Shown here piece by piece: positions 9,710 through 45,757 of a stretch of 64,000 nt of DNA. The DNA lies in assembly GCA_030652995.1 (NCBI GenBank), contig JAUSAG010000035.1, positions 62,001-126,000 of the forward strand, read 5' to 3'. The notes below the pieces were generated by a model. That model was given only the letters and a program-made list of their open reading frames with translations. It was not told where the DNA came from and made no database searches. The stretch comes from Methylotenera sp. GTDB lineage: Bacteria; Pseudomonadota; Gammaproteobacteria; Burkholderiales; Methylophilaceae. Each line of letters begins with the position of its first letter. The first letter of the stretch is position 1. The translations under genes and the position numbers were made by a program.

Positions 9710-9765
9710 AAATTTCTGCAGAATAAAAAAGTTGTGCGAAACGTCCCAGCTATTAACGCTACAAA

Positions 9766-13159: not shown

Positions 13160-13205
13160 ACAAATAAAAACTAAAATACCTTAAAAATGATGAGGGGATA
13201 TAACT

Positions 13206-15428: not shown

Positions 15429-15457
15429 CCTATTGAATATAAAGCACTATTACTAAC

Positions 15458-17574: not shown

Positions 17575-18003
17575 TTAAGCCAGCGTATATTGCGGCATAA
17601 TTGGCCTAAAAATAAGGCGTAAATGACGCCTACCCAAGCTTTCAATTTCGTTGAAAAATAATACACAAGCAAAGTGTATCCCACCTACCCCAATCACTTC
17701 AAAACTATAACCGATACGGGATAAAAATCGCAGGGTAGGATTGACGCTTTTGCCTAGCATTAACGGTGTTTCCTTCAGCCATGGCAGAAACTTGGATATA
17801 GGTTGCCAAGTCAGGTTGTTAGGTGCGCCATCCAACAATATGGCGGCCGCTTTATTGTATTCGCAAATTAGACCATCATCATCTAGCGTTATGAATGCTA
17901 AATCTTCTTCACTTTGGGAATAATCTGCATTGTTTGTTGCTTCAATCTCATTTGTCACAAGGGCATCTGAGTTAAGTTTAGTGTTCAAATTCGATATTTT
18001 CAT
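17575..18003 (-). CDS. Small PAS-like hypothetical protein
   Basis: 142 aa; EEDLAFITLDDDGLICEYNKAAAILLDGAPNNL resembles a PAS N-terminal strand; ATGA overlap with the upstream DUF2934 ORF. Confidence 0.6.
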   Translation of the reverse strand: MKISNLNTKLNSDALVTNEIEATNNADYSQSEEDLAFITLDDDGLICEYNKAAAILLDGAPNNLTWQPISKFLPWLKETPLMLGKSVNPTLRFLSRIGYSFEVIGVGGIHFACVLFFNEIESLGRRHLRLIFRPIMPQYTLA

Positions 18004-18245
18004 CCATTCACCTCCGTTTCAGCGTCTAGCCAGCCATCAATCTCATGGCCAGGCTCAAAACCTCTAGCTTCCGCTTTATGATATGCACATATAGCAATGC
18101 GAGCGCATCTATCTGCTACGCTAGATTCTTGATTGGTTTCAGTCTCGGATTGAATACCGAAAATAGGGATAGGGTTTTTACTGCCTCCCTGCGTTGCTTT
18201 TAAAAGTTCCATCATGCCTCCTATTGAATATGGCGCAAAAGTCAA
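18000..18245 (-). CDS. DUF2934 domain protein
   Basis: RCARIAICAYHKAEARGFEPGHEIDGWLDAETEVNG matches the DUF2934 signature (A..AY..AE.RGFEPGHE.DDWL.AE). Confidence 0.8.
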   Translation of the reverse strand: MTFAPYSIGGMMELLKATQGGSKNPIPIFGIQSETETNQESSVADRCARIAICAYHKAEARGFEPGHEIDGWLDAETEVNG

Positions 18246-18342
18246 TGCTCATAAATCCAGGGGTGAGATTTACTACAACAGAACATTACTTCGAACGCAA
18301 TGCCGAAGATATCAATCTACTTCACTAATCAAAACATGTAAA

Positions 18343-18372
18343 TTAGGGCAAACACGTACGGGCTAACCCTTA
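18343..18372. promoter_or_regulatory. Shared 30-nt motif, copy 1 (upstream of amrB)
   Basis: TTAGGGCAAACACGTACGGGCTAACCCTTA; 27/30 identical to 24503-24532. Confidence 0.7.
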
Positions 18373-18444
18373 TAGGATTGAAAAATGAAAAATTGCCTCA
18401 ATCATATGGGCAATATTCTTATTGTTATCTGGTGGAGGTTCGCT

Positions 18445-23471: not shown

Positions 23472-23987
23472 TTACTGAATGGAGATATTACGCCGCTTGG
23501 AAGATTCCACTTTAGGTAAAGTAACTTCAAGAATACCATCTTTCAAACTTGCTGCGGTTTTAGTTGCATCAACCTTACTAGGCAAAGACACCGAACGCGC
23601 AAATGAAGAGCTGGAGATCTCATGGCGATGATAATCACCTTTTTCTTCTTTTTTCTCACTACTGGATTGACCTTTGATAGTGAGCAGATTATCTGTCAAA
23701 GAAACGTTCAGATCTTTTTTATCAATGCCAGGGATTTCGGCGCGAACCAGAATATCGGCATCTCTATCAATCACATCCAGGCTAGGCAAGCGTAAACCTT
23801 CTTGCTCGAACATATTATCTAGTAATGAAAGATCATTACGGCGCCATAATGACGGCCAACTGCGACCAAAAAGGCGATCAAAAGCACGCTCCATGTCAGC
23901 AATCGGATGAATATCAGGCCATGAAGTCTTTGCGGCCTCCTTACCTGTAGTTACCGGAATGTTTGTCTTGTTTTCTGTACTCATCAT
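23472..23987 (-). CDS. Hsp20/alpha-crystallin family small heat-shock protein
   Basis: LPSLDVIDRDADILVRAEIPGIDKKDLNVSLTDNLLTIKGQSSSEK...SFARSVSLPSKVDATKTAASLKDGILEVTLPK. Confidence 0.94.
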   Translation of the reverse strand: MMSTENKTNIPVTTGKEAAKTSWPDIHPIADMERAFDRLFGRSWPSLWRRNDLSLLDNMFEQEGLRLPSLDVIDRDADILVRAEIPGIDKKDLNVSLTDNLLTIKGQSSSEKKEEKGDYHRHEISSSSFARSVSLPSKVDATKTAASLKDGILEVTLPKVESSKRRNISIQ

Positions 23988-24048
23988 GCTCTCCTCAGAT
24001 TATCATTTAAAAAAACCTAAAAATCACTCAATACATCATCCAACATCA

Positions 24049-24273
24049 TTACTTACTAATAAATTCAGCCTCGGCTTCTAGCCAATCTTGCAGCTCATGC
24101 CCAGGCTCATAACCTCGCGTCTCTGATTTATAATAAGCGGCTACAGCAATGTGAGTGAGGCTATCTTCGTTATTAGATTCCAGCGTGGGGCCTTCCTTAG
24201 TAATAGGTTTTTTCCTACTGACTTTGGTTGTTTTTAAAGATGTCATGGTGCCTCCAAAAGAATCACAAAACAA
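24049..24273 (-). CDS. DUF2934 domain protein (second copy)
   Basis: LTHIAVAAYYKSETRGYEPGHELQDWLEAEAEF. Confidence 0.8.
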   Translation of the reverse strand: MFCDSFGGTMTSLKTTKVSRKKPITKEGPTLESNNEDSLTHIAVAAYYKSETRGYEPGHELQDWLEAEAEFISK

Positions 24274-24502
24274 AAAATCAAAGACCTGAATCTCTGATAT
24301 GGGTTCTACAACTATAGCGAATCTCTAAAATAATGGCAGTCACTTATCATTTTGCACCATAAGGATGCTTCGACTTTCTAAGAGATAAATCACTTGAGAA
24401 GCCCTATGTAGCAACACAATTTATTTATGAAAGCAGCTATAACCAATGCGTTAAGCATCCATCTGATTAGCGAAGGTTACTGGAGTATTTGAAATTAATA
24501 TA

Positions 24503-24532
24503 TTAGTGCGAACACGTAAGGGCTAACCCTTA
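24503..24532. promoter_or_regulatory. Shared 30-nt motif, copy 2 (upstream side of the DUF2934/Hsp20 genes)
   Basis: TTAGTGCGAACACGTAAGGGCTAACCCTTA; contains perfect inverted repeat TAAGGG-CTAA-CCCTTA. Confidence 0.7.
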
Positions 24533-24753
24533 ATCTGGCTTGGGGATTAACAGATAGAAACTCATTTACATTTTAAGGCACCTCTAATGTCTTGCTGTTT
24601 TCACTCAGGGTAATGTGCGCTGGCGCATGTATACAAGCTAAACCAAATGCTGGCTTAGCTTTTATATTCAATGACAAAAACCCCTGCGGTCGACACATGC
24701 ACTCTGTGAGGAAGTTAAATACGGGCTTAACGCTAAATAGCCATACAGCTTTA

Positions 24754-26136: not shown

Positions 26137-26137
26137 G

Positions 26138-27521: not shown

Positions 27522-27749
27522 CTATTCTTGCTCTTGCTGTGCTGGGATTACAGGTGCCTTAGCAGATGGGTTTGCAGTCTCAATTTTCTTATTGAGTAAC
27601 AACACCTGAGTCTGCGTCATATACATCAAATCGTCGCTTCGTTTAATACCCACAAACGCTACCACCAAAGCCAGCAACGCAATTACAAACGTTGCAGCAA
27701 TCCACAGACCAAATCTCTCTGGTTCAATAATATGTTTCATATCAGCCAT
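27522..27749 (-). CDS. Small single-TM hypothetical protein inside the tad locus
   Basis: 75 aa; FGLWIAATFVIALLALVVAFVGIK TM helix; sits between tadD-like and tadE. Confidence 0.65.
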   Translation of the reverse strand: MADMKHIIEPERFGLWIAATFVIALLALVVAFVGIKRSDDLMYMTQTQVLLLNKKIETANPSAKAPVIPAQQEQE

Positions 27750-27830
27750 TTCATACTCCCTTTAATTAAAAAAATTAAACTACTATTTACTACCCTACCA
27801 AAAAATAATTACCATGCTAATACTGCCCAC

Positions 27831-29072: not shown

Positions 29073-29116
29073 ATCTCCAATCCAATCATACTTATGGCTT
29101 TATCACTAAATATCGA

Positions 29117-30073: not shown

Positions 30074-30095
30074 GTTCTCGCTTATTTAATCTGCA

Positions 30096-31067
30096 TCAAA
30101 CCCGTATTTTAGTAATACGCCACATCGCAAAAATACCCAACACCATCAGGCACAGTGCCGCAACAACCATTTTCTGCCCTATTGGATCAGTCCAAAGTAC
30201 ACTCAAAAATTGAGGGTTCATCAGCTGAAGCACAAACCCTAGCGCAAAGGGTAGAAGCGTTAAGATCCAAGCGGATAAACGTCCCTCAGCGGATAAAACG
30301 CGTACTGTTCCCATTAATTTCAGGCGTGCCCGAATCAGTTGGCTAATGTTGCCAAGCAACTCTGCCAAGTTACCTCCTGTTTCACGCTGAATCAGCACTG
30401 CAATCACAAAGTAGCTGAGATCAGTACTCGGTACACGCGTGGTGAGGTTAATCATTGCCTCCTGTGTAGATATGCCATAGTTGATTTCATCAAAAACAAT
30501 ACGAAACTCAGAAGCGATAGGCTCAGGCATTTCACCGCCCACCATCTGTAATGCGCTCGGAAAAGCATGACCCGCCGTCATGGCACGCCCCATCAGATCA
30601 AGCGCATCAGGCAATTGCTGCTCAATGGCAATCATTCGATTATGTTTAGCGCCTTGCATGTATAACAAAGGTAAAACACCAGCCGCTGAGCCAATGGCTA
30701 CCACCGCAAACACAGGCAGACGTAACAGCAATGCAATCGCTACTCCAGTAGCCACTGCAAATAGCATTAAGCCTATAAACTTTGCAACACTCAAATTCAA
30801 GCCTGACTGCATAATGAGCCTGTCGAGCTGATGGATACGCGGTATTTGCAATAGCAATTGCTCAATACCCGGGGTTTGAGATAGCAAGCGCTGCTTGACC
30901 AAGGATGAACTTTTTTGGTGTGCCCCTGCAGACATAGCCTGCAAACGCTTTTCAATGCGTTTTACCTCAGGGCCTTTATAAGCATTCCAGGCTAAATAAA
31001 CCCCCTCCAAAAAAAGAACTACTGCCAGAAACCCTAGCACTACAAAGACATAGTAGAGATAATCCAC
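30096..31067 (-). CDS. tadB: Type II secretion F family protein TadB
   Basis: QLPDALDLMGRAMTAGHAFPSALQMVGGEMPEPIASEFRIVFDEINYGISTQEAMINLTTRVPSTDLSYFVIAVLIQRETGGNLAELL. Confidence 0.94.
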   Translation of the reverse strand: MDYLYYVFVVLGFLAVVLFLEGVYLAWNAYKGPEVKRIEKRLQAMSAGAHQKSSSLVKQRLLSQTPGIEQLLLQIPRIHQLDRLIMQSGLNLSVAKFIGLMLFAVATGVAIALLLRLPVFAVVAIGSAAGVLPLLYMQGAKHNRMIAIEQQLPDALDLMGRAMTAGHAFPSALQMVGGEMPEPIASEFRIVFDEINYGISTQEAMINLTTRVPSTDLSYFVIAVLIQRETGGNLAELLGNISQLIRARLKLMGTVRVLSAEGRLSAWILTLLPFALGFVLQLMNPQFLSVLWTDPIGQKMVVAALCLMVLGIFAMWRITKIRV

Positions 31068-31076
31068 ATTAACCTC

Positions 31077-32435
31077 CTACTCATATAACTTGGTTGGATC
31101 GAACAGCTCGTCAGACACGGCAATACCGTGAACACGCAAACGTTCAATAAATCTGGGGCGAATACCCGTAGCTTTAAAGTGCCCAAGCACTGTACCGTCC
31201 TCAGCCACACCTGTTTGCTCGTAAACAAAAACATCCTGCATGGTAATAATGTCGCCTTCCATGCCAGTAATTTCCTTAATACTGGTTACCTTGCGCTTAC
31301 CGTCACTCAAGCGCGATATATGAACCACAGCTGTCAATGCAGAACTGATCTGCTCACGCATCGCCTTTGGTGGCAGGTTAAAACCTGCCATGCCTATCAT
31401 GTTTTCTAAACGAGTCAGTGCATCGCGCGGCGTATTGGCATGTACTGTCACCATAGATCCTTCATGGCCAGTATTCATCGCCTGCAACATATCAACCACT
31501 TCTGCACCACGCACCTCACCTACAATGATGCGGTCTGGACGCATACGCAGACTGTTCCTAACCAGCATGCGTGGCGTAACCTCGCCCTTGCCTTCAATAT
31601 TAGGAGGGCGAATTTCCAAACGCACGACATGCGGCTGTTGCAGTTGCAACTCAGCGGCATCCTCAATGGTGATTACGCGCTCGTTTGCAGGAATATTGCT
31701 AGAAAGTACATTGAGCAAGGTAGTCTTCCCTGTACCTGTACCGCCGGAAATCAGCAAGTTCACTTTGGCCTTCACCAGACCTTCAAGGATTTCAGCCATT
31801 TCTGGTGTTAGGCTTTTAAATTGCAGAAAGTCTTTCATCTGCAAAGGTGTCAAAGCAAAGCGGCGAATCGAAAGAATAGCGCCATCAACTGCCAGCGGTG
31901 GGATAATCGCGTTAACCCTTGACCCATCTGGTAAGCGAGCGTCTACCATTGGGCTTGATTCATCCACACGACGACCGACCCCGGAAACAATTTTGTCGAT
32001 AATCTTTAACAAATGCGCTTCATTTTCAAAACGAACATCGCTTAGCTCTAGCTTGCCTTTGCGCTCTACATATACTTGCCGATAGGTATTGACCAAAATA
32101 TCCGAGATCGTAGAATCTGCCATCAAGGTTTCCAAAGGTCCTAATCCAAGCACCTCATGCTGAATATCACGTACTAAATTCACGCGCTCGGAGTCGTTAA
32201 TTGCCATCGTTTCCTCTGAAAGCAGGCGTTCAACCAGCGTTTTCAGCTCTTCCCGTAGCAACTCCGGCGGCATGTTTTCCATCATGGCAAGATCAACACG
32301 ATCAAGTAGCTTACGATGTATCCGTGATCTAAGCTCCTGATAAACCTTATTACCCATAAATCCGATCTGCGGTGTAGTCGTCGGGGCCTGAGCCGTATCT
32401 TTTTTGATGTCTTCCAACCTATCACGTAGCGACAT
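31077..32435 (-). CDS. tadA: CpaF/TadA secretion ATPase
   Basis: NLLISGGTGTGKTTLLNVLSSNIPANERVITIEDAAELQLQQPHVVRLEIRPPNIEGKGEVTPRMLVRNSLRMRPDRIIVGEVRGAEVVDMLQAMNTGHEGSMVTVHANTPRDALTRLE. Confidence 0.98.
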   Translation of the reverse strand: MSLRDRLEDIKKDTAQAPTTTPQIGFMGNKVYQELRSRIHRKLLDRVDLAMMENMPPELLREELKTLVERLLSEETMAINDSERVNLVRDIQHEVLGLGPLETLMADSTISDILVNTYRQVYVERKGKLELSDVRFENEAHLLKIIDKIVSGVGRRVDESSPMVDARLPDGSRVNAIIPPLAVDGAILSIRRFALTPLQMKDFLQFKSLTPEMAEILEGLVKAKVNLLISGGTGTGKTTLLNVLSSNIPANERVITIEDAAELQLQQPHVVRLEIRPPNIEGKGEVTPRMLVRNSLRMRPDRIIVGEVRGAEVVDMLQAMNTGHEGSMVTVHANTPRDALTRLENMIGMAGFNLPPKAMREQISSALTAVVHISRLSDGKRKVTSIKEITGMEGDIITMQDVFVYEQTGVAEDGTVLGHFKATGIRPRFIERLRVHGIAVSDELFDPTKLYE

Positions 32436-32490
32436 AATTCACTTCCTTCCTCAATTCAGCATTTATTCTTAATTGCAATCTAGCGACCTA

Positions 32491-33657
32491 CTACGCGTGT
32501 TGAAACAAACTATCCAGCCAACTACTGCTTTTAGCCTTTGGATCTGTTGTCAAATTTTTCGCCACTTCCTGTAAAACCTTTGTCACTGAGTTGTGCTTGT
32601 ATATCTTCATAATCGGCACCCCCTGATTAACCGACGCAGAAACTGCCTCGTAACTATTCGGGATGGTTTTAAACATTTTCATACCAAGCGTCTCTTCAAT
32701 ATCATCCAGTTGAATGTCGCCACCCTTATCGTAACGGTTAAGAATCAAATGAATCTTATCTTTCGCGTAACCCAATGACTGCAAGGTATGAATCAGCCGC
32801 TTTGAGTCACGTATAAAAGGCAACGTTTCCTGCAGCACTACAAAAATCATATCGGCATGATCCAAAGCTTTTACACTGGTGGCGCTAAGCGTTCTGCCAA
32901 TATCCATAATCACGAAATCATATTGAGACTTAGCCAACCTTATCAATACTTCAATATGCTCAGGCTTAATCTCTACAGAGCGCTCTGCATCCTCAGGTGC
33001 GGCCAGCACCCCATAATTGGGTAGCACCTGCACCATAGAAGATGCTAAAAAAGAGGCATCAAGACGTGAAATATTGCTCGCCACATCAGACAAGGTGTTA
33101 GATGGAACGGAATCCGAAACAAACAATGCAGCGTCACCAAACTGCAAATTCAAATCAAGCAGTGCTACCTTTACATCTCGGGTCGCTGCCAAAATGTATC
33201 CTAGGTTACATGCCAGAAATGTGGCTCCGCTACCACCTTTACTTGCCATAAAAGCAATCACCTTACCCATTTTTTGCGAAGTGGAAACTGGCTTTAATTT
33301 ACTTTCAATCCTTCTAACAGCTTCTTGTAAAGCAACTGCTTCCAAAGGCAATACATCTTTTACGCCAGTACGTATTGCAGCAACTAAAAACTCTGACGAG
33401 GCGTTTTCACACAGGATAATCATTGCTGATCCTGGGTAATGCTGACCGAACTGCTCAAGTGTTAGAAGCTCCTCTGTTCCATGGCTTATCACATCCAAAA
33501 TAACAATATCTGGGTGCTCTTTATCAGCAACCAAAGCAAGCTGATCCAAGCCATCCTTAAACAGCAAAACTTGCCTCGAAAAATCACCACCCTGAAGAAT
33601 TTGGCGAATCTCCTCCATTCGAGCTTTGTTTGGCGATATGACTGCAATTTTCAACAT
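32491..33657 (-). CDS. tadZ: CpaE/TadZ pilus localisation ATPase (receiver-like plus MinD-like)
   Basis: GKVIAFMASKGGSGATFLACNLGYILAATRDVKVALLDLNLQFGDAALFVSD (deviant Walker A). Confidence 0.94.
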   Translation of the reverse strand: MLKIAVISPNKARMEEIRQILQGGDFSRQVLLFKDGLDQLALVADKEHPDIVILDVISHGTEELLTLEQFGQHYPGSAMIILCENASSEFLVAAIRTGVKDVLPLEAVALQEAVRRIESKLKPVSTSQKMGKVIAFMASKGGSGATFLACNLGYILAATRDVKVALLDLNLQFGDAALFVSDSVPSNTLSDVASNISRLDASFLASSMVQVLPNYGVLAAPEDAERSVEIKPEHIEVLIRLAKSQYDFVIMDIGRTLSATSVKALDHADMIFVVLQETLPFIRDSKRLIHTLQSLGYAKDKIHLILNRYDKGGDIQLDDIEETLGMKMFKTIPNSYEAVSASVNQGVPIMKIYKHNSVTKVLQEVAKNLTTDPKAKSSSWLDSLFQHA

Positions 33658-33710
33658 TATTGTTCTCTCATGTTATTCAATGTGCCTAAACACCTTCAGT
33701 CCGAGCGCAC

Positions 33711-34046
33711 TTAGCGCACGACACCACCAGCACCAGTACCAACACCACCACTACCTGTTCCCACCCCAATATTGAATACATTGGTGGTTACAGGCGGCTG
33801 AACGAAAGATTTATGATAACGGTCAACCGCTGCGTCAGCTACCTGCCCATCTACCCCCGCCACTGGGTCGGTGTTGAGTGAAGCATCCGGATTGATGGTC
33901 TGCTGTGCCTTGGCAGCGTTTACCGCTTCACCAAAGTGCTCGTCAATATATGGTGTGTTTGTAGCACAACCGGCTAAAACGACTGCACTGAACAAAGCTG
34001 TGAGCACTAATTTATAAGTAGATGGTTTGAATGTTAATGTGTTCAT
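33711..34046 (-). CDS. Tad-locus lipoprotein, Gly-rich C-terminus
   Basis: Lipobox VVLAGCAT; DPVAGVDGQVADAAVDRYHKSF; VGTGSGGVGTGAGGVV tail. Confidence 0.7.
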   Translation of the reverse strand: MNTLTFKPSTYKLVLTALFSAVVLAGCATNTPYIDEHFGEAVNAAKAQQTINPDASLNTDPVAGVDGQVADAAVDRYHKSFVQPPVTTNVFNIGVGTGSGGVGTGAGGVVR

Positions 34047-34056
34047 GATGCTCTCC

Positions 34057-35631
34057 TTATTTCACTTCAAAGCCATCGTTTTGGCCTTGCTGGGCTGATT
34101 GTGGCGCCGTAGCATCGCTCGGCAAGGCTGTAGGTGCGGCCGGCTTACCTTCCAATTTTCCATCCAGAAAAAACTCTTTTTTGCTTGGAGCATTAAAGCT
34201 GTCTGTAGGCAATATGTAATCAGGTGGTAATGGTTTAACCAAGCGTGGTGTCACTACAAACAGAAGCTCAGTCTTTTCATTCTGAAACGCACTACTGCGG
34301 AACAATGCACCAAGGATTGGGATATTGCCCAACACCGGAAAGCGTTTAATATTCTCTGTAACGTTATTCTTTAGTAACCCTGCAATAGCAAAGCTTTGCC
34401 CATCGCGGAGCTGTACGGTGGTAGAAACACGCCGAGTAACGAGAGAAGGGAAAGGTGAATTTGCAATCGTAGTGCCGACGACATCTTCTGATTTAGCCAG
34501 CTCCGTCACTTCAGGTGCCACCCTCAGGTTGATGAGGCCATCTTCCAGCACGGTTGGTGTAAATTTAAGACCTACACCAAAGTCCTTTTCCTCCAGCGTA
34601 ATGGCTCCCGCTGCGCTACCACCCTGTGGCACTGGAATGTAGAACTTACCACCAGCCAGAAAACTACCTTCCTGCCCACTGATCGCGATGATATTCGGCT
34701 CAGCCAATATTTTAACAACGGTATCTCTGTCCTCAGCATCTATATTGATCGCCGTATTGCCGTGAGTAATTCTCAATGCACCGCCGGCCCCACCACTAAA
34801 TGGACTTGTTGTCAGACTCAAGAATCCGGCAGCAATCGCATAAGCCACACCGCCATTCGTGCGTGATGCACCAAATGAGGCACCCAGTTTATCCAGAAGA
34901 TTTTTAGAAACTTCAGCCATTTTCACTTCCAACATCACCTGTTGCGGTGCTGCAACCTGTAGCATGTTGATGACTTTTTTGTCTTTATCTTTGCCTACGT
35001 AAGCCTCGGCCAGCGACATGGCTTTATCTACTTTGACTGCATCAGCCACGGTGCCACTTAACACTATCGAATCAGACGCTGTGCTCACCTTAATCCCTTT
35101 TTCACTTGGCAATACTTGTTGCAATTTAGCTTGTAGTGCAGCGGCGTCCACGCCCACAGTCACGCCTACAACGCTTACGTCCATTACGGTGGTTTGCCCA
35201 GATTTATCCCAAATAATCACGACCGTTGAACCTACCGTTTTGGCATGTATCACCACCTCCCTAGGGCTAGTCACCTCAACCTGCACTATTTTTTCATCAT
35301 CCACCTTTACCTTTTGCAGATTCACTCCTACGGGTAGCCTTACCAAATGAGATTGCCCTAATGAAAGCTCCATCCTTGGCACAAGTTCCGTTAAGGCAGG
35401 GTAAGAACGCATTGGCTTTTTAGATACAGCAGCTGCTACAGCCGGCTTCTGCGCCTTCTGTTTTGATTCTGCAGCATATAGCGGTGCCCCAGTAATCAGC
35501 GCTACCCCCAACATGGAAGCGAGCAACTTACTACCACAAATTGATAACTGGCTATTGGTAATCTTGTGCTTATTCATTTTCATTTCTCCCTGGCAATATG
35601 CCATTTCGCTTTCAAATTCGATGTAAACCAT
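34057..35631 (-). CDS. rcpA: RcpA/CpaC secretin (start probably near 35583/35577)
   Basis: BON-like LSGTVADAVKVDKAMSLAE; secretin VGLKFTPTVLEDGLINLRVAPEVTEL...RRVSTTVQLRDGQSFAIAGLLKNNVTENIKRFPVLGNIPILGALFRS. Confidence 0.96.
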   Translation of the reverse strand: MVYIEFESEMAYCQGEMKMNKHKITNSQLSICGSKLLASMLGVALITGAPLYAAESKQKAQKPAVAAAVSKKPMRSYPALTELVPRMELSLGQSHLVRLPVGVNLQKVKVDDEKIVQVEVTSPREVVIHAKTVGSTVVIIWDKSGQTTVMDVSVVGVTVGVDAAALQAKLQQVLPSEKGIKVSTASDSIVLSGTVADAVKVDKAMSLAEAYVGKDKDKKVINMLQVAAPQQVMLEVKMAEVSKNLLDKLGASFGASRTNGGVAYAIAAGFLSLTTSPFSGGAGGALRITHGNTAINIDAEDRDTVVKILAEPNIIAISGQEGSFLAGGKFYIPVPQGGSAAGAITLEEKDFGVGLKFTPTVLEDGLINLRVAPEVTELAKSEDVVGTTIANSPFPSLVTRRVSTTVQLRDGQSFAIAGLLKNNVTENIKRFPVLGNIPILGALFRSSAFQNEKTELLFVVTPRLVKPLPPDYILPTDSFNAPSKKEFFLDGKLEGKPAAPTALPSDATAPQSAQQGQNDGFEVK

Positions 35632-35674
35632 GTGTTATCGACACCCTAAGTTAGGTACAACTACACGCGTCTCC

Positions 35675-36550
35675 CTAGGGCTTGAATTCTTCAATCGTTT
35701 TGTTAGTGCCGCGCACCACTTCAACCTGCTCATAAACTGGCTTTTCAACTGCCTTTTTAACAGCCGCCTTGCGGTATACAACGACTTTTTTCACTTCAGC
35801 TTTATCACCAGTTTGCTGAATCGCAATGGCTTCAGGCTGTTCCGTACGGTTAAGCAAATTCTTTTTAGTAGAGCCTATCGTCGTCACCAAGCTGGTATCA
35901 ACCTGATTACGAAGTACCAGTGATAACGTGCCTACGCTACGTGCAAGATCAAGTTTTTCAGCCTGCTCTGGCGTTACCTCTAGCGTTACCGCATTCACTA
36001 CCTTAGGCTTTGTGTCATCCCTAACCTGCTCTTGTGCAACCGCCAGCACCAGAATATGTTCCAGTACAATTTTTGAAATGCTCTTATTAACATTTTCTGC
36101 TTTAACACTCTCGTCCTCAGTGTTCACTACGATATCCACATAGTTACCAGGTAAGGCAAACCCTGCCACACCAACCACATCATTGACCCGCACGGTAATT
36201 GCTCGGTTACCTTGCGCGATCACCGCAGACAAGCCACCTGTTGCACCAATTGGTGCCAACTTAGATTCCAACACTGGCTCACCGCGTAACAAGCTTACTT
36301 TCACCACACGCGTGTCTAAAGTTTTGACATCATCTGTAGCGCCTGCAGGTACGCTACCTTTAGGCCAATCGGCTACCTTAAGCATTTGTGGCGTAAGGGG
36401 CGTACCCAAATCAATGTCACTGGCTGCCACAACAACCTTATCGGAGGCGACTTTCGTTTGCTTTGAAACCCAGTTTGAGGCCAATACAACGGCGCCAAGC
36501 CCAATCCCTACCGAAATCACTATCATCACAAAAGCTCTTGGATTTTTCAT
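35675..36550 (-). CDS. cpaB: RcpC/CpaB Flp pilus assembly protein (SAF domain)
   Basis: VVVAASDIDLGTPLTPQMLKVADWPKGSVPAGA...VVKVSLLRGEPVLESKLAP...RAITVRVNDVVGVAGFALPGNYVDIVVN. Confidence 0.95.
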   Translation of the reverse strand: MKNPRAFVMIVISVGIGLGAVVLASNWVSKQTKVASDKVVVAASDIDLGTPLTPQMLKVADWPKGSVPAGATDDVKTLDTRVVKVSLLRGEPVLESKLAPIGATGGLSAVIAQGNRAITVRVNDVVGVAGFALPGNYVDIVVNTEDESVKAENVNKSISKIVLEHILVLAVAQEQVRDDTKPKVVNAVTLEVTPEQAEKLDLARSVGTLSLVLRNQVDTSLVTTIGSTKKNLLNRTEQPEAIAIQQTGDKAEVKKVVVYRKAAVKKAVEKPVYEQVEVVRGTNKTIEEFKP

Positions 36551-36590
36551 CTGTCATCCCCTTTATTTTCTATTCTCATCAATTTAAGCG

Positions 36591-37922
36591 TTAGTCATGC
36601 GTAAAATAGTTGTTCCACGCCCAGTCCAGCAACTCTCTACTCATCTCTGCCGACTTACCTTCATACCGTGCTATATCTCTTAACTGCTCCAATATATCGC
36701 GCGGGATGCAAGCAGATAATGGCTTGCCACTCTTATAGTGATGCTCATGCAAAAGGTAGTTAAAACCTTCTTCACTAAATGGAATTTGCAATTCGGTGCA
36801 CACTTGTTTAGCAATCTGGCGGTATTCATCCTCACTCAGCGGCCCCACATAAATCTTGTAGCCCAAGCGACGTAAAAATGCTTCATCTGCCAGCTTGCTA
36901 GGCGGTAAATTGGTAGAAAACACCACGATCACGTCAAACGGCAACATGAATTTTTTACCAGTGTGCAGTGCTAAATAATCAACATGGCGATCCAGCGGCA
37001 CAATCCAGCGGTTCATAATGTCAATAGCAGGTGCTAGTTGCCGCCCTAAGTCATCAATAATCAACAGACCATTGTTGGCTTTTACCTGCGGTGGCGCTTG
37101 GTAAAAACGGGCACTTTCATCAAAGTCTAAATCAAGCATGGCAAGTGTTAATTCACCGCCTGTTTTAATCACGGGACGATGACACGCTACCCAGCGCGCA
37201 TCCGTTGTCATTCTGCGATCCAACCCTAGCGCCGTTTCATTGCCACTGCCATTGACTGGCACACAAGGCTCGTGGGTTAATGGATCAAACACTTGAATCA
37301 CCTCGTTATCCACCACAATCGCATGCGGGATGGCAACATCCCCTGAAAGCAACCCCGCCAGATGTTCTGCAATAAAAGTTTTACCGCTACCTGCTGGGCC
37401 ATACACAAAAATCGCACGGCCAGAGTTCATTGCCGCACCAAACTGCTTAAGAATGCCCTCTTTTACCACCAAGCCATTAAATACTTTCGATAACTGCTCA
37501 CGCGTCACCTGCATGTTGGCCACAGATTGCTCTCGGACTTGCTTAACATAAGCAGGCAAACTAACTGGGGCTGGCCCTACATATTGGCTCTTACGCAGAT
37601 AATCTTCAGCACGTAAGCGCCCCAGCTCAGTAAGGTTGTAGGCAATGGCGGTTTCAGCCTCACTGCTACGTGTAGCCTCACACATGCGCTCGGTACGCAT
37701 AAATGCCAGCAAAGGCTCTAACACTGCAACAGAAAGTTTGGAATAGGAAACCAAATCCATCAACCGCATTTGCCCGCGCAAAAACAAGGCTTTGGTGAGG
37801 AGCTCTACAAGAAATTGAAAGCTAAGACCAGTTTCATCAATAGTACGAGGATGTGCTGGAATCAACGTATGACGCCGCTCTTCTGTCGCTACTCTTGCCT
37901 GTTCTGTAAACCTTGTTTTCAT
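36591..37922 (-). CDS. AAA+ ATPase with N-terminal winged-helix-like region, tad-associated
   Basis: Walker A IFVYGPAGSGKTFIAEHLA; Walker B GLLIIDDLGRQL; VIVVFSTNLPPSKLADEAFLRRLGYKIYVGPLS. Confidence 0.85.
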   Translation of the reverse strand: MKTRFTEQARVATEERRHTLIPAHPRTIDETGLSFQFLVELLTKALFLRGQMRLMDLVSYSKLSVAVLEPLLAFMRTERMCEATRSSEAETAIAYNLTELGRLRAEDYLRKSQYVGPAPVSLPAYVKQVREQSVANMQVTREQLSKVFNGLVVKEGILKQFGAAMNSGRAIFVYGPAGSGKTFIAEHLAGLLSGDVAIPHAIVVDNEVIQVFDPLTHEPCVPVNGSGNETALGLDRRMTTDARWVACHRPVIKTGGELTLAMLDLDFDESARFYQAPPQVKANNGLLIIDDLGRQLAPAIDIMNRWIVPLDRHVDYLALHTGKKFMLPFDVIVVFSTNLPPSKLADEAFLRRLGYKIYVGPLSEDEYRQIAKQVCTELQIPFSEEGFNYLLHEHHYKSGKPLSACIPRDILEQLRDIARYEGKSAEMSRELLDWAWNNYFTHD

Positions 37923-38014
37923 TTTTAGTTTCTTTTCTAATCACCAGGTTTTAGTGAGCTATCTCTGTACGCGTGTTTCTTTAAATCTTAAATCCTTGCT
38001 GTTCCCTGAGCTTG

Positions 38015-38102
38015 CGTTCCCTGAGCTTGTCGAAGGGCGAAGGGCGAGGGCGAAGGGCTATCTTTCTTAACCATTTATTCCCTTCGACAAGCTCAGGGAA
38101 CG
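38015..38102. repeat. 23-bp perfect inverted repeat, REP-like element copy 1
   Basis: CGTTCCCTGAGCTTGTCGAAGGG (38015-38037) and CCCTTCGACAAGCTCAGGGAACG (38080-38102). Confidence 0.85.
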
Positions 38103-38123
38103 GCGTGGGGGGGGAAGGTGAGG

Positions 38124-38702
38124 CTACATCCAACCAACCCGCTGCCAAACCAAATAACCCAAGGTGCCTACTGTAATCGCCACTGCGTAAGGTAACTTAC
38201 CCACTGAAACTGGCAAGTCATTCATCAACGGTGCTTGCCCTGCACTCATTTTTACAAAACCACCCAGCAATATCAGCTTCACGTTTAGTAGCATTCGGCT
38301 CAACTGCCTCGACCACAACACCACCGCAAGCGCCATTACACCACCAGCAATAAACGTTGCCAGCACCGCACCTAATACATCAGCTGACCCTAAAAAAGCA
38401 CCAACCATCGACATTAACTTCACATCACCTGCACCCATGGCGCGTAGCCAGTAAATCGGTAACACTACTGCCATACCAACTACTGAACCTCTTAACGCAG
38501 CCAACCAACCCAAGCCGCCAGGTATTGCGCTGTTAAAACCCTGACCTTCAGGTAATAATCCATTCAAAACCACACCTAACACCAAACCGATTAAAACCAG
38601 CTTGTTAGGAATACGACGACTACGAATATCATGCCTTGTCACCATTAACAACAACACAAGTAACGGTGTTAATGCCAGTAATCCCATCAAGTTCGGTGTC
38701 AT
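38124..38702 (-). CDS. cpaA: Prepilin peptidase CpaA/TadV
   Basis: RHDIRSRRIPNKLVLIGLVLG; AMGAGDVKLMSMVGAFLG. Confidence 0.93.
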   Translation of the reverse strand: MTPNLMGLLALTPLLVLLLMVTRHDIRSRRIPNKLVLIGLVLGVVLNGLLPEGQGFNSAIPGGLGWLAALRGSVVGMAVVLPIYWLRAMGAGDVKLMSMVGAFLGSADVLGAVLATFIAGGVMALAVVLWSRQLSRMLLNVKLILLGGFVKMSAGQAPLMNDLPVSVGKLPYAVAITVGTLGYLVWQRVGWM

Positions 38703-38829
38703 GCTAATTCTTTCACATCATTTTTACTGACCAAACCACAACAAAACCGTAGTCTTGATGAGACCGTGAAGGTCTTCCCCGCAGAATATATGCGCTAAAG
38801 CCCATTATTCATGCGTGATAGCTAGAAGC

Positions 38830-38865
38830 GGAATCAAGGGTTACATTTCCCTCGATTCCATCGAG
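38830..38865 (-). promoter_or_regulatory. Alternative stem-loops in the flp-cpaA intergenic region
   Basis: GGAATCAAGGG(38830)/CCCTCGATTCC(38849), 10/11 paired; and CTCGAT(38851)-TCC-ATCGAG(38860), which shares bases with the first. Confidence 0.4.
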
Positions 38866-38914
38866 GCTACGCTTGCTCAATGCATCCTCAACCTTGTTGA
38901 ATCAGCACCTAGAA

Positions 38915-39100
38915 TCAAGGAGTAGCAGGAGCAAGAGCCGCAGCAACTCTTGTAAACACATCATTAACCCTTGTGCCCGTCAACTGTACCGCACCAATAA
39001 TCACCACCGCGATTAACGATGCTATCAGTGCATACTCAATCGCTGTCACACCTTCTTCATCATTCACAAAACGTTGTAAGCCTAAATATAAATTTTTCAT
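38915..39100 (-). CDS. flp: Flp/Fap pilin
   Basis: MKNLYLGLQRFVNDEEGVTAIEYALIASLIAVVIIGAVQLTGTRVNDVFTRVAAALAPATP; start set at 39100. Confidence 0.95.
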   Translation of the reverse strand: MKNLYLGLQRFVNDEEGVTAIEYALIASLIAVVIIGAVQLTGTRVNDVFTRVAAALAPATP

Positions 39101-39266: not shown

Positions 39267-39315
39267 CCTATACGCGCTGACACCTATACGTGCTAGCACT
39301 TAACCCTTATGGGTA
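39267..39315. promoter_or_regulatory. tad/fixLJ divergent promoter region: 16-bp-period direct repeat plus TAACCCTTATGGGTA
   Basis: CCTATACGCGCTGA (39267) and CCTATACGTGCTAG (39283); TAACCCTTATGGGTA at 39301-39315. Confidence 0.5.
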
Positions 39316-39413
39316 GCTGGGTAAATTGCTAGGCAAATGTCGGTTTTTTATCGTAGACTGCAAACTTATGTTGAGCCAATCTCTCGTGTGGCAGATTTTT
39401 TTGAAAAGGTGAT

Positions 39414-40913
39414 TTGTTGACCGATCCACTTAAAGACCTTAGCTTTAAAACACTGTTTGAGGCAGCGGCAGATGCCATGCTGTTGGTTAATGACAAGGGT
39501 CATATCATTCGTGCCAACGCTGTAGCACTTGATCTTCTGGGCTATTCGGAAAAAGAAATATCTAGCCTTGAGGTTGAAGAACTCATGCCAGAGGAATATC
39601 GGGCTCAGCATCACCATCATCGAAGTGCCTTTTACCGTAAGCCGGAGAAGCGCTCTATGGGGAGCGGAAAAGCGCTTTCAATACTTCGCCATAACGGCGA
39701 AGTGCTAACCGTTGATATCAGCTTGAGCCCCATGCAATCAAAACGGCAGTTTTATGTGCTGGTGACACTTCATGTTGCTGACAGACGTAACCAAGCTGAA
39801 GAAGCATTAAGAATCAGTGAAGAAAGATTAATGCTAGCAAAACAGGCCGCAGGTTTGGGGGTGTTTGATTTCGACTCCAATCACAACATTTGGTATTGGG
39901 ATGAGCGTATGCGTGAGCTTTGGGGCGCAGAGTCTAACGAAGCCATCGCGACCAAGCAGTTTTTAACCGCCATTCATCCAGAAGATCGTGCCGCTAGAGA
40001 GGCTGCACTAGACCGCTCAATTGACCCGGCAGGCAATGGTGAATACAGCGCTGAATATCGGGTAACCAACCCTGCTAACGGTGTCGAGCAATGGATATCA
40101 GCCATAGGACGCATGCATTTTGAAGATGGCGTTGCGATTAGGCTAGTGGGTGTGGCCCGTGATATTACCGAACAAAAAATACTAGAAAAAAATTGGCAAA
40201 CCCATCGTTCTGAAACTGAGGCGCTTTTTGCGCAGCAAGTAGCCTCGCAGACGGTTTCGGCCATTGCGCATGAGCTTAACCAGCCACTCGCTGCAATTTC
40301 GGCTTATAGCGAAGTTGCATTACATGCGTTACAAAATGATCATTTTGACCAAAAAAACTTAAGGCAAGCGCTTGATGGCTGTGTAAAGCAATCGCAACGC
40401 GCCGGTCGTAGCTTGCACGAATTGCTGGCTTTTTTGCAAAAAGGTGAGTTGATCACAGAAAAACTAAATCTCAACAACATCGTACTAGAGTCTTTGAACC
40501 TTGCAAAAAGTTATGGTTATGGTGAGTTTCAGCTAGAACTTCAGTTAGAGCCGGATCTACCTACCATTCTAGGCCATCGGGTTCAGATACAAAAAATACT
40601 GGTAAACCTATTAACCAACGCAGTTGAGGCAATGCGGGGTGCAGGTGTCCCTACCGCTGCCATCACCATCAAGGTAAGCACCAATGCCGAGCTCAACATG
40701 GCGCATGTAATAGTGCAAGATAGTGGTCCAGGCCTTGATGCCATCACAGCTAATCGCATATTTGAACCATTTTTTACCACCAAACATAACGGTATAGGCA
40801 TGGGGCTTGCCATTAGCCGTGCGCTAACCGAGGCCAACGGTGGAAGACTCTGGCTTGAACCTAACGTAAAAGCTGGCGCTATCTTTCATTTAACATTACC
40901 ATTTGCACCATGA
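39414..40913 (+). CDS. PAS-PAS sensor histidine kinase, FixL-like (TTG start proposed)
   Basis: PAS: MPEEYRAQHHHHRSAFYRKPEKRSMGSGKAL; second PAS; H-box AIAHELNQPLAAISAYSEVAL; HATPase ILVNLLTNAVEAM...DSGPGL...GIGMGLAISRAL. Confidence 0.93.
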   Translation: MLTDPLKDLSFKTLFEAAADAMLLVNDKGHIIRANAVALDLLGYSEKEISSLEVEELMPEEYRAQHHHHRSAFYRKPEKRSMGSGKALSILRHNGEVLTVDISLSPMQSKRQFYVLVTLHVADRRNQAEEALRISEERLMLAKQAAGLGVFDFDSNHNIWYWDERMRELWGAESNEAIATKQFLTAIHPEDRAAREAALDRSIDPAGNGEYSAEYRVTNPANGVEQWISAIGRMHFEDGVAIRLVGVARDITEQKILEKNWQTHRSETEALFAQQVASQTVSAIAHELNQPLAAISAYSEVALHALQNDHFDQKNLRQALDGCVKQSQRAGRSLHELLAFLQKGELITEKLNLNNIVLESLNLAKSYGYGEFQLELQLEPDLPTILGHRVQIQKILVNLLTNAVEAMRGAGVPTAAITIKVSTNAELNMAHVIVQDSGPGLDAITANRIFEPFFTTKHNGIGMGLAISRALTEANGGRLWLEPNVKAGAIFHLTLPFAP

Positions 40914-41530
40914 TGACTGCTAACCCGACTGTTTTTATCGTTGATGATGAGCCCGCAATCCGAGATTCTCTGACGCTGATGATTACGCAAGAGAACCTCG
41001 CCGTGATGGCATTTGAAAACGCCTATGCATTTTTAGAAGCCTGCCAAGCGGGGTGTTTAGGCTGTGCAATCGTTGATGTTCGTATGCCTGGTATGGATGG
41101 CATGCAACTACAACAAGCGCTTTTAAAGCGCAACATTCTGTTACCGATTATTTTCTTGACTGGGCACGGCGATATTCCCATGAGCGTTAAAGCGATGAAA
41201 TCTGGCGCAATGGATTTTCTCACTAAGCCAGTTTCGCGTGAAAAACTCATCTCTGCGGTGCGCTCTGCCATGCGCGAATCTGAAAAAATAACCACAGAAA
41301 GCATTCATCGTCATGATGCAAAATCTCGTCTTGCGGATCTCACCGACCGTGAACGTGATGTCATGATGCTGGCTATTCAAGGCTACCCCAACAAAGAAAT
41401 TGCCCGCCACTTAGATATCAGCCATCGTACTGTAGAAATCCACAAATCCAAGATCATGCGTAAAACTGGCGCAATTAACCTGCTTGATCTGGCTCGTATT
41501 GCCCACGAAGGTGGCTCGATAGAATCCTGA
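40910..41530 (+). CDS. FixJ-family response regulator (REC + LuxR HTH)
   Basis: TVFIVDDEPAIRDSL...CAIVDVRMPGMDGMQLQ...IIFLTGHGDIPMSVKAMKSGAMDFLTKPVSREKL; LTDRERDVMMLAIQGYPNKEIARHLDISHRTVEIHKSKIMRKTGA; 4-nt overlap with the kinase. Confidence 0.95.
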   Translation: MMTANPTVFIVDDEPAIRDSLTLMITQENLAVMAFENAYAFLEACQAGCLGCAIVDVRMPGMDGMQLQQALLKRNILLPIIFLTGHGDIPMSVKAMKSGAMDFLTKPVSREKLISAVRSAMRESEKITTESIHRHDAKSRLADLTDRERDVMMLAIQGYPNKEIARHLDISHRTVEIHKSKIMRKTGAINLLDLARIAHEGGSIES

Positions 41531-41983: not shown

Positions 41984-42261
41984 CTTTTAGAACTAATCAA
42001 ATTAAAACGCTGTGTTTCATTGTTTAAACCAAGACATTTCAAGCTAAATTGAAGCGCGTTAATAATTACCGCGATCAATTAAACATGCTAAAAAATCTTG
42101 AGCGCTAAAACAAACACGTAACAACTCAAGTCTACTACCAGCATGATTTTAGTCTAACTAATCAACTATTTAATATACGTGCTCGCGCGGATTACTTTGT
42201 TTACAAATTCTTGATACCGTAGGCCCTATTGTGATTAAGTCTATGCTGAGAAGGTAATGCA

Positions 42262-42867
42262 ATGATGCCGTTACTAAAAGTAGAAATGAATATTTTTGAG
42301 ACAATACTGGCGAGGCGCTCAATTCGTCATTACAAAACGCAACCGGTCGATCAAGTCACTGCTCATATATTGCTAGAGGCTGCCGTTCGGGCGCCTACAG
42401 CAATGCATCGAGAGCCTTGGGCGTTTGTCATTATTCAAGATAAAGCGCTTTTCAAAAAACTGTCCGATCATGCAAAACCACTTTTTATTGCCAAGGTGAC
42501 GTCTCACCAGAGCGCCTATGAAAATCACGGCCACCTATTAGAGGCTTTTCGTAGCCCGGATTTTAATATTTTTTATAACGCTGGCACGCTTATCCTTATT
42601 TGCGGCAAAAAAACGGCGCACCCTTTTGAGGCAGATTGCTGGATGGCAGCAGAAAACCTGATGCTGGCAGCTTCTGCAATGGGGCTAGGCACATGCGTCA
42701 TTGGCAGCGCTCTGCCCGCAGTTAATGACCCTGAAGTGAAATTATCACTTGGTATTTCAAATGAATTTTCTGTGGTCGTGCCAATTATTCTGGGCTACCC
42801 AGATCAAGATGTCACACCAAATTTACGCAAGCCGCCGTTAATTCTATCCAGCATGATTGCAACATAA
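42262..42867 (+). CDS. Nitroreductase family protein
   Basis: FETILARRSIRHYKTQPVDQVTAHILLEAAVRAPTAMHREPWAFVIIQD; AAENLMLAASAMGLGTCVIGSA. Confidence 0.92.
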   Translation: MMPLLKVEMNIFETILARRSIRHYKTQPVDQVTAHILLEAAVRAPTAMHREPWAFVIIQDKALFKKLSDHAKPLFIAKVTSHQSAYENHGHLLEAFRSPDFNIFYNAGTLILICGKKTAHPFEADCWMAAENLMLAASAMGLGTCVIGSALPAVNDPEVKLSLGISNEFSVVVPIILGYPDQDVTPNLRKPPLILSSMIAT

Positions 42868-42921
42868 ACCACCACATTTAACGCCATTGTTTCATATTGT
42901 ATTTTTGATAAGGATACTGTC

Positions 42922-43374
42922 ATGTACAAACAAATTCTTTGCCCAGTAGATGGCAGTTCGTCATCAAAACGCGGCATGGTTGAGGCCATCCAACTGGCGA
43001 AAGACCAAAATGCCAAGCTCCGTTTTTTACATGTGGTTGATACTTTTTATCCGATGATGGATGTTACCGCTGGTTTAAATGTGATTGAGATTGCCGAGGC
43101 TTTAAATAAAAACGGCAAAAAGATACTTAAAAAGGCAGTAGATGCCGCCCAAAAAGAAGGTTTGACCGCCGAGGCAGAAATAAGAGAGTCCGTTGGTGAG
43201 GCTGTCGCGCAGTTTATCGTGAGTGAAGCTAAAAAATGGCCGGCTGACTTGATCGTAATTAGTACACATGGCTTGCGCGGCATTTCACGTCTGGTAATGG
43301 GAAGCGATGCTGAAACCGTAGTGCGAACCAGCCATGTACCTGTTCTACTCGTCAGAAGTCAGGCAAAAAGCTGA
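42922..43374 (+). CDS. Universal stress protein
   Basis: YKQILCPVDGSSSSKRGMVEAIQLA; DLIVISTHGLRGISRLVMGSDAETVVRTSHVPVLLVR (ATP-binding USP motif). Confidence 0.94.
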   Translation: MYKQILCPVDGSSSSKRGMVEAIQLAKDQNAKLRFLHVVDTFYPMMDVTAGLNVIEIAEALNKNGKKILKKAVDAAQKEGLTAEAEIRESVGEAVAQFIVSEAKKWPADLIVISTHGLRGISRLVMGSDAETVVRTSHVPVLLVRSQAKS

Positions 43375-43381
43375 GCAAGTG

Positions 43382-44701
43382 ATGTCAACGCAAATTAACT
43401 CAGAATATAAGCCAAGTAAGGGTCAAAACAGCATTAGTTTTACTCACCGCATTTTGCGTCGATTATTCAGGGATTACAGAGAGGCGTTTGCAATCCGTTT
43501 ATGGAACGGCAGCGTATTGCATATTGGCGATGATGCATCACCTACATTTACGCTGGGGGTTATGCACCCAGGTGTATTACGTCATTTGGTGTTGTTCCGT
43601 GACCCGATTCGTTTAGCTGAGGCCTATTTTGATGGCGAGGTTGAAGTAACGGGAGATTTTAATGCAGCAATGGGGCTACGTTATTATCTTGAGAACTTAA
43701 GACTCCCGCTCCATGAAAAACTTTTAATGGCATGCCACGCGCTTGCGTTAGGGCAGCAAAAAATTAAGTCACGCCCACAGCAGCAAGCTGTTACTAAAAA
43801 ATCAACCCATGTGACTAATCAAAACAATATTGAATCAATTGCCTTTCATTACGATGTTTCAAATGAATTTTACCGACTTTGGTTGGATGATCGCATGCTG
43901 TATTCCTGTGCCTACTTTGAAACATCGGAGCAAAATTTAGAGCGCGCTCAGTGCAATAAGCTTGATTATATCTGTCGCAAATTGCGCCTACAGGCAAACG
44001 AAAACCTGCTTGATATTGGTTGCGGATGGGGCGCGCTCGTGTGCTGGGCCGCCAAATACTACGGCGTAAAAGCCCATGGCATTACGCTTAGCCGTAACCA
44101 GTATGAATATGCCTGTGCAGAGGTAAAAAGACTGCAATTAGAAGACCAAGTCACGATAGAGTTGTGTGACTACCGTGACCTGCCACTAGCAGCAAGCTAT
44201 GACAAAGTATCCAGTATTGGCATGTTTGAACATGTTGGCCTTAAAAATTTAAGCAGCTATTTTTCAACAGTGCATCGAGTGCTTAAACCTGGTGGCTTAT
44301 TTCTAAACCATGGTATTACTTCCGATACCGCAGGCTGGAACCAAGGTGTTTCTACCCAGTTTATCAATCGCCATGTGTTCCCAGATGGCGAGCTAGATAC
44401 GGTCAGCAATATCCAGCGCAGGATGGAAGAAGCAAATTTTGAAATATTTGATGTAGAGGGCTTACGTCCGCACTATGCGCTCACATTGCGGCACTGGGTA
44501 AAGCGCCTAGAAGAACAGCGTGAAGAGGGTGTGAGCTTGGTAGGCGAGCGCACCTACCGTGTTTGGCGGCTTTATATGACTGGCTGTGCCTTGCAGTTTG
44601 AGCAGGGCGCTACTGGCATCTACCAGATTCTGGCTGAACGTAAAAAGAAGGGTTTGCCTAATTTACCGCTGACTAGGCGAGATTTATATGTAAATGATTA
44701 G
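43382..44701 (+). CDS. Cyclopropane-fatty-acyl-phospholipid synthase family methyltransferase
   Basis: SIAFHYDVSNEFYRLWLDDRMLYSCAYFETSEQNLERAQCNKLDYICRKLRLQANENLLDIGCGWGALVCWAA; start set at 43382. Confidence 0.93.
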   Translation: MSTQINSEYKPSKGQNSISFTHRILRRLFRDYREAFAIRLWNGSVLHIGDDASPTFTLGVMHPGVLRHLVLFRDPIRLAEAYFDGEVEVTGDFNAAMGLRYYLENLRLPLHEKLLMACHALALGQQKIKSRPQQQAVTKKSTHVTNQNNIESIAFHYDVSNEFYRLWLDDRMLYSCAYFETSEQNLERAQCNKLDYICRKLRLQANENLLDIGCGWGALVCWAAKYYGVKAHGITLSRNQYEYACAEVKRLQLEDQVTIELCDYRDLPLAASYDKVSSIGMFEHVGLKNLSSYFSTVHRVLKPGGLFLNHGITSDTAGWNQGVSTQFINRHVFPDGELDTVSNIQRRMEEANFEIFDVEGLRPHYALTLRHWVKRLEEQREEGVSLVGERTYRVWRLYMTGCALQFEQGATGIYQILAERKKKGLPNLPLTRRDLYVND

Positions 44702-44748
44702 AAGTAGCTTGAAGTTTATTCATTCAATAACTAGAAAAGGAAATAACC

Positions 44749-45198
44749 ATGACTATCGGAGCAATATGTAATCGTGAAGTAATCACTGTGCGGCGTGACG
44801 CCAATGTGTTGCATGCGGCCACGCTCATGCGCAAGTATCACGTAGGCGATGTAGTTGTGATTGAAGATCATAAAGGTAAATCAGTGCCGGTAGGCATAGT
44901 CACCGATCGTGACATCGTGATAGAACTGGTGGCAACAGAGCTTGATTGCAGAGTCATTACCACGGGTGACATTATGGTCAGCAATGTCAATGTTATCAAA
45001 GAGAGTGCAGGTATTTTTGAGGCGATTCAACTGATGACAAACAAAGGCATCCGACGGTTGCCGGTGGTTGATAATGAAGGCGGACTGCTAGGCATTGTGA
45101 CATTGGACGATTTATTGCAATTGCTGGCAAAAGAGTTTGGGGCACTGACCAAGTTAATCAGCCGTGAACAGAAAAATGAAATCAGTAAACGGCCTTAG
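44749..45198 (+). CDS. CBS-domain protein
   Basis: Two CBS motifs: VGDVVVIEDHKGKSVPVGIVTDRDIVIEL and KGIRRLPVVDNEGGLLGIVTLDDLLQLL. Confidence 0.93.
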   Translation: MTIGAICNREVITVRRDANVLHAATLMRKYHVGDVVVIEDHKGKSVPVGIVTDRDIVIELVATELDCRVITTGDIMVSNVNVIKESAGIFEAIQLMTNKGIRRLPVVDNEGGLLGIVTLDDLLQLLAKEFGALTKLISREQKNEISKRP

Positions 45199-45256
45199 CG
45201 CAGGCACGACCAAAAAGTGCTCCATTAATTAAAACTAAAACGAAAGGACTTATACC

Positions 45257-45757
45257 ATGAGTATCAATAAAATACCTTCAAATGCGCAATCTGCCGGTTA
45301 TGAACGTCCGCTATTTGAACGGGACACAGATGCCTACAAGGCTAAAGGCAAGTTGTCGGAGCCAACCATTTGCCCGCAGTGCGGTGCTGTGTATCATGCA
45401 GGGCGCTGGCAATGGGGTGAAGTATCTGCCAGTGCAGACCGAAAAACCTGCCCTGCTTGCCATCGCATCAACGACAATTTTCCGGCTGGTTTTGTTACGC
45501 TGGATGGGCCGTTTTTTAAAGACCATGTTCAAGAGATTATTAGCTTGATTAACAACCATGAGCAACACGAGCGCGCCGAGCACCCCCTCAAGCGCATCAT
45601 CTATATTGAACGGCAGGGTGACGCTATATTAGTCACAACAACCGACACCCATCTCGCGCGCGGCATTGGCGAGGCAGTGCGCCACGCTTATCAAGGTGAT
45701 TTAAAAGTTGACCATGTATCGGGTGAAAGCTCAGTACGTGTTCACTGGCATCGTTAG
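45257..45757 (+). CDS. BCAM0308-like protein (zinc-ribbon-like CxxC pairs)
   Basis: YERPLFERDTDAYKAKGKLSEPTICPQCGAVYHAGRWQW...KTCPACHRINDNFPAGFVTLDGPFFKDHVQEIISLINNHE; family name from memory. Confidence 0.75.
   Translation: MSINKIPSNAQSAGYERPLFERDTDAYKAKGKLSEPTICPQCGAVYHAGRWQWGEVSASADRKTCPACHRINDNFPAGFVTLDGPFFKDHVQEIISLINNHEQHERAEHPLKRIIYIERQGDAILVTTTDTHLARGIGEAVRHAYQGDLKVDHVSGESSVRVHWHR

Follow-up and report, generated by a model that had tools for sequence, protein, structure and literature searches.

The window, as we call the whole 64,000-nucleotide stretch of Methylotenera sp. DNA that was analysed, carries a gene pair for a FixL-like kinase and a FixJ-like response regulator, separated by a spacer from the divergent flp gene. 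The genes and sites on which the analysis turns are the following:

17575..18245, minus strand: DUF2934 protein (Pfam) and small PAS-like protein, divergent from Memo
18342..18376, plus strand: full operator ATTAGGGCAAACACGTACGGGCTAACCCTTATAGG, between the DUF2934/PAS-like pair and Memo (amrB); 44.9 bits, E=9.6e-7 with the R1 model in its own genome
18385..20941, plus strand: AmmeMemoRadiSam genes, from ORFs (Memo by Pfam; AMMECR1 and radical SAM named from sequence)
23472..24273, minus strand: ORFs for hsp20 and another DUF2934 gene, which the 24502 operator may control
24502..24536, plus strand: full operator ATTAGTGCGAACACGTAAGGGCTAACCCTTAATCT, upstream of the DUF2934-hsp20 genes; 38.3 bits, R1 E=1.1e-8, the best in the genome
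39270..39287, plus strand: weaker upstream copy ATACGCGCTGACACCTAT (U12 matrix), 16 bp before the core unit, the first of the CCTATACG repeats
39287..39302, plus strand: core 16-bp palindromic unit TACGTGCTAGCACTTA of the flp/fixL operator, matching TAMGKGCNARCMCKTA with zero mismatches
39301..39315, plus strand: TAACCCTTATGGGTA, right end of the putative variant operator, read directly
39354..39359, plus strand: TAGACT, probable -10 box of the fixL-like promoter, 50 bp downstream of CCCTTA
39414..40913, plus strand: FixL-like kinase gene (PAS, PAS_3, HisKA and HATPase by Pfam; FixL kinase core in the PDB, 7e-42)
40910..41530, plus strand: FixJ-like response regulator gene (receiver and GerE HTH by Pfam), the proposed binder of the element
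42174..42194, no strand assigned: nitroreductase-promoter block TATACGTGCTCGCGCGGATTA, whose reverse strand can be read as one operator unit (42175-42192)
42262..45757, plus strand: ORFs for nitroreductase, USP, cyclopropane-synthase-like, CBS and BCAM0308-like proteins (nitroreductase and Usp by Pfam)

The remaining gene names in 42262..45757 are tentative, assigned from sequence. Memo probably starts at 18445, since gGAGG precedes the ATG there, and the small PAS-like protein encoded in 17575..18245 has no Pfam match. Elsewhere in the window, one perfect FNR-type palindrome, TTGATATATATCAA, is found at 10189, and a methyl-accepting chemotaxis-type protein and a PAS protein are encoded at 3291-5859, near a glycogen gene group (about 7200-17100).

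A preliminary description of this DNA had pointed to the spacer at 39267-39315. The direct repeat that it reported, CCTATACG(C/T)GCT with a 16-bp period between flp and the FixL-like kinase gene, is present, and its copies, CCTATACGCGCTG at 39267 and CCTATACGTGCTA at 39283, are identical at 11 of 13 positions when read directly. The likeness that it had drawn between 39301 and 18364 is also real (TAACCCTTATGGG and TAACCCTTATAGG are equal at 12 of 13 positions), and the 12-mer AACCCTTATRGG occurs just twice in the 2,660,931-base genome, both times inside the window. Taken as the motif itself, the 13-mer proved too short and misleading, being a mere fragment of a 35-bp element. This full element, ATTCGTGCnARCACGTAAGGGCnARCCCTTATAT, emerged from relatives gathered via the FixJ-like protein (Methylotenera, Nitrosomonas and other Methylophilaceae) and, within the genus, via the kinase; most Methylophilaceae and Nitrosomonas having the pair, about 30 relatives in all, carry it ahead of their orthologous fixL-like gene. 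It is composed of two 16-bp palindromes (TAMGKGCNARCMCKTA), TTCGTGCnARCACGTA and TAAGGGCnARCCCTTA, which have two bases in common and hence a 14-bp period, and 14 of its 35 columns are invariant across 27 training sites. In one relative (L016:3378-3426), three units stand in tandem with the same period. Nitrosomonas-type loci (L012-L020) hold a second operator at about 940-1430, about 2 kb upstream of the fixL operator, preceding a gene whose product has NGTNGAP-like repeats and looks like a membrane or exported protein; nearby genes resemble those for SbtA and a PII-like protein.

Aligned with the full element, 39267-39315 is best read as a variant operator of the fixLJ-like promoter, with 1) a perfect 16-bp unit, 2) a weaker copy 16 bp upstream, and 3) an TAACCCTTAT end. 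Conservation is concentrated in the block TATACGnGCnARCnCTTA, where 13 of 18 columns are invariant across 7 genomes versus 34 of 210 elsewhere (p=1e-6). The upstream copy scores 14.6 bits with the U12 matrix, at 0.25 expected per 64 kb, and is kept in the closest relative (L084), and a 16-bp tandem arrangement is also found at L225:575/591. The TAACCCTTATGGGTA/TAACCCTTAT end stands where the full element has its second palindrome, and its counterpart in L084 is TAACCCTTTTAGG. CCCTTA precedes TAGACT by exactly 46 bp in the fixL promoters of 7 relatives and by 56 bp in that of one more; this constant spacing would set the operator immediately ahead of the -35 region, as expected of an activator.

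The strongest predicted sites of the window are not in this spacer but at 18342-18376 and 24502-24536. The site at 18364-18376 in the preliminary description is real but covers only half of an operator, and the operator at 24502-24536 had been missed. Equal neighbours surround the first in three relatives (L179, L181 and L196), and the second is conserved in L179, L181 and L184, its hsp20-DUF2934 arrangement recurring in the last two. The exact pattern TAMGKGCNARCMCKTA occurs at three places in the 2.66-Mb genome (18357, 24517 and 39287), versus 0.15 expected, all of them in the window and within 23 kb of fixJ; a few further places outside the window appear when one mismatch is allowed. This pattern was defined after the sites had been seen, and a single-unit matrix trained on other genomes is the cleaner test. 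Its four top-scoring single units in the window are 24502, 18342, 39286 and 42175, each with about 0 to 0.05 expected in shuffled 64 kb. Enrichment no greater than background was the result that the preliminary description had set against its own proposal, and this was not what was observed. Beyond the window, model and pattern searches of this genome gave no full operator.

A related block lies upstream of the nitroreductase. TATACGTGCT, which had been reported there, does occur at 42174, and 12 genomes share the surrounding TATACGTGyTCrCGCGGATTA with almost no change, some 80-110 bp ahead of the nitroreductase start and with a conserved TTGnTA after it. A genus-wide search found it at 29 places in 26 of 52 genomes and at none with the reversed control. 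The decamer CAAACACGTA, said to be shared by 18350 and 42111, is present at both (the first copy at 18349), but the copy at 42111 is a chance match: it is outside the top matrix list of the window and absent from the nitroreductase promoters of most relatives. The block fits the operator unit well on one side only; its right half, GCGGATTA, deviates from the unit yet is nearly invariant, and the full operator and the block stand together in the nitroreductase promoters of four genomes (G009, G027, G029 and G043). It is a serious possibility, though one that we lean against, that the block is a separate conserved element, either a promoter core or the site of another regulator. This would suit the two genomes that have the block without the FixJ-like regulator. 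Against it, only three units in the window score higher than the block, which matches on the minus strand, and it is carried by 24 of the 28 genus genomes with the regulator versus 2 of the 24 without. Since some nitroreductase promoters hold both block and full operator, the block has two possible assignments, to the FixJ-like regulator or to something different.

Which protein binds the full element can be approached from its distribution. Among 187 genomes of the family, 45 carry the regulator (E below 1e-70) and 39 the full element (E at most 1e-3): 38 genomes have both, one the element only, seven the regulator only, and 141 neither (Fisher p=2e-31, with genomes treated as independent and kinship ignored). 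Part of this co-occurrence is circular, as the training sites of the model lay upstream of fixL; the near-absence of the element from the 142 regulator-free genomes is not. Several of the seven regulator-only genomes carry variant or single units near fixL, without a strong full site. In a 399-genome sample of the order, the element was found in the genome under study and in four genomes of one other genus only, and nowhere outside the family and that genus, which the loci of named relatives suggest is Nitrosomonas.

A different transcription factor, sharing the neighbourhood and phyletic distribution of the fixLJ-like pair, might bind the element instead, and two genomes invite this idea. The orthologous regulator was not found in G043 (86% complete), the element-only genome, which has full sites and the nitroreductase block, nor in G046 (71% complete), which has the block. 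Both exceptions are reduced draft genomes, however, and a NarL-type regulator near their sites is unconvincing as an alternative binder, with about 30% identity and an unrelated kinase adjoining it. Moreover, most genomes have the site in the promoter of the regulator itself, site and regulator co-occur almost perfectly, the palindrome is similar to a known FixJ site, and the recurring neighbours include no other recognised DNA-binding protein. We therefore regard a different binder as unlikely. That the element is mobile or repeated (REP-like) DNA or a structured RNA is very improbable: it is palindromic and recurrent, but it has few copies at most per genome, beside a narrow gene set only and at a fixed distance from a promoter-like box, and the window gave no Rfam match to a structured RNA. 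Chance has almost nothing left to explain, for although the similarities were picked after the sequence had been viewed, and the decamer at 42111 is such a case, this reading is already refuted for 18342, 24502, 39287 and 42174 by the independent matrix, genome-wide rarity and conservation.

The FixJ-like regulator, our preferred binder, matches the response regulator FixJ (5xso) best in the PDB, over its full length (residues 2-204; 8e-48). The first PAS domain of the kinase aligns with the FixL haem PAS domain (1d06) without gaps over 105 residues (E=8e-10). A candidate haem histidine, His66, in the putative proximal column, is present here and in the covered Methylophilaceae orthologues, and is Tyr or Phe in Nitrosomonas-type orthologues. 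The FixL distal arginine is not conserved, being Lys here and Asn, Arg or Lys among the orthologues. Because the histidine is lost in Nitrosomonas and the arginine is not kept, haem oxygen sensing by this kinase is no more than a candidate function.

In relatives, the recurring neighbours of the element are fixLJ, DUF2934, the PAS-like companion, Memo/AMMECR1 and Hsp20, together with phosphoribosyltransferases, nitroreductase/USP/CBS and the BCAM0308-like protein. Orthologues of the DUF2934 and PAS-like pair adjoin it in many of them, and these two genes are a probable core of the regulon. Small DUF2934 proteins are encoded at 18000-18245 and 24049-24273, each adjoining a full operator, and many relatives have a DUF2934 gene and a small PAS-like gene ('LTLYDNGMI') divergent from fixL. 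Since it is this pair and not flp that is divergent from fixL in most relatives, Tad pilus control is possible but Tad is not a conserved target. The Tad cluster (24754-39100) lies between the operators at 24502 and 39287, and in G038, G049, G050, G004 and G008 a second site is similarly some 15-20 kb away from fixL. Insertion of the Tad cluster between fixL and the 24502 site was considered and given up, because in G171, too, a separate DUF2934-hsp20 site stands about 15 kb from fixL.

Among known systems, rhizobial FixLJ (S. meliloti and Bradyrhizobium) is alike in pairing a PAS kinase with a FixJ-type regulator. The S. meliloti FixJ site at the fixK promoter, TAAGTAATTTCCCTTA, is a 16-bp imperfect palindrome with overlapping footprints at -69/-44 and -57/-31 (PMC4999443), just upstream of the promoter, much as the palindromes overlap here. 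If N is counted, 12 of its 16 positions agree with TAMGKGCNARCMCKTA, a likeness of sequence only. In contrast to the rhizobial system, the pair here would control its own operon along with a group of stress genes, neither fixK nor nif genes were seen among the neighbours, the core is GC-rich with a 2-bp overlap between two palindromes, and the haem histidine is not in all orthologues. The DosR/DevR box of Mycobacterium tuberculosis differs in sequence from the element. DosR/DevR itself is a NarL-class, autoregulated regulator with closely packed cooperative sites, divergent promoters and many universal stress proteins (PMC3029386, PMC6127331). It is alike in regulator class, closely packed sites, divergent promoters and universal stress protein genes, and in the autoregulation and cooperativity that we propose here; it belongs to another phylum, with another kinase type. 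As in DosR-type regulons, USP, nitroreductase and Hsp20-class genes stand beside the sites, and one site is in the regulator's own promoter. BCAM0308 presumably belongs to the lxa locus of Burkholderia cenocepacia. That locus is alike as a low-oxygen-induced island of universal stress protein and other genes, and the accessible text of its reports contains no FixJ-type operator (PMC9104464, PMC6127331). FixLJ of Burkholderia dolosa, upstream of fixK, is a betaproteobacterial pair alike in kind and not an established orthologue, and the available portions of its reports give no operator motif (PMC5234846, PMC9104464). NmpRSTU of Myxococcus xanthus, a two-component control of an oxygen-utilization regulon, is alike in its paired palindromic sites but has an NtrC-type regulator, sigma-54 promoters and another motif (PMC11841059).

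Taken together, the sites, their rarity and conservation, their co-occurrence with the regulator and their spacing to promoter-like boxes are directly established, and we infer that the FixJ-like regulator very probably binds them, autoregulates and controls a stress/dormancy-type regulon. The FixL-like kinase would phosphorylate the regulator, which would bind the 16-bp palindromes as a dimer; on the full element, cooperative binding of two dimers immediately ahead of a sigma-70 promoter would activate that promoter. Activation rather than repression, phosphorylation dependence and cooperativity are drawn by analogy from FixJ (PMC4999443) and DevR (PMC3029386). Through the operator of its own promoter, the regulator would control its own operon; through 18342 and 24502, the AmmeMemoRadiSam, DUF2934/PAS-like and DUF2934-hsp20 genes; and through the variant site at 42174, probably the nitroreductase-USP genes. 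The putative signal is low oxygen or redox stress. Of the four modules that the preliminary description had tied to this regulator, a shared operator links the fixLJ-like operon, AmmeMemoRadiSam and, as a variant, the nitroreductase-USP promoters, on the evidence of regulator co-occurrence and of the same gene classes adjoining the element in relatives; Tad shares only the flp-fixL spacer.

The literature searched, to which most subscription papers do not belong, holds no earlier description of the motif or of FixJ in these bacteria. It is quite conceivable, if still tentative, that this is an undescribed autoregulated FixLJ-like dormancy or low-oxygen regulon of methylotrophs and ammonia oxidisers, built on tandem overlapping 16-bp palindromes, with the widespread AmmeMemoRadiSam and DUF2934 proteins acting in stress survival and a sensor whose signal may have shifted from one family to another, given the missing haem histidine in Nitrosomonas orthologues. 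These findings provide an example of a FixJ-type site doubled by overlap and supply a concrete operator and a brief list of targets for an orphan two-component system found in methylotrophs and ammonia oxidisers. Through their tie to a stress or dormancy-type response, the function of AmmeMemoRadiSam, DUF2934 and the PAS-like companion becomes testable.
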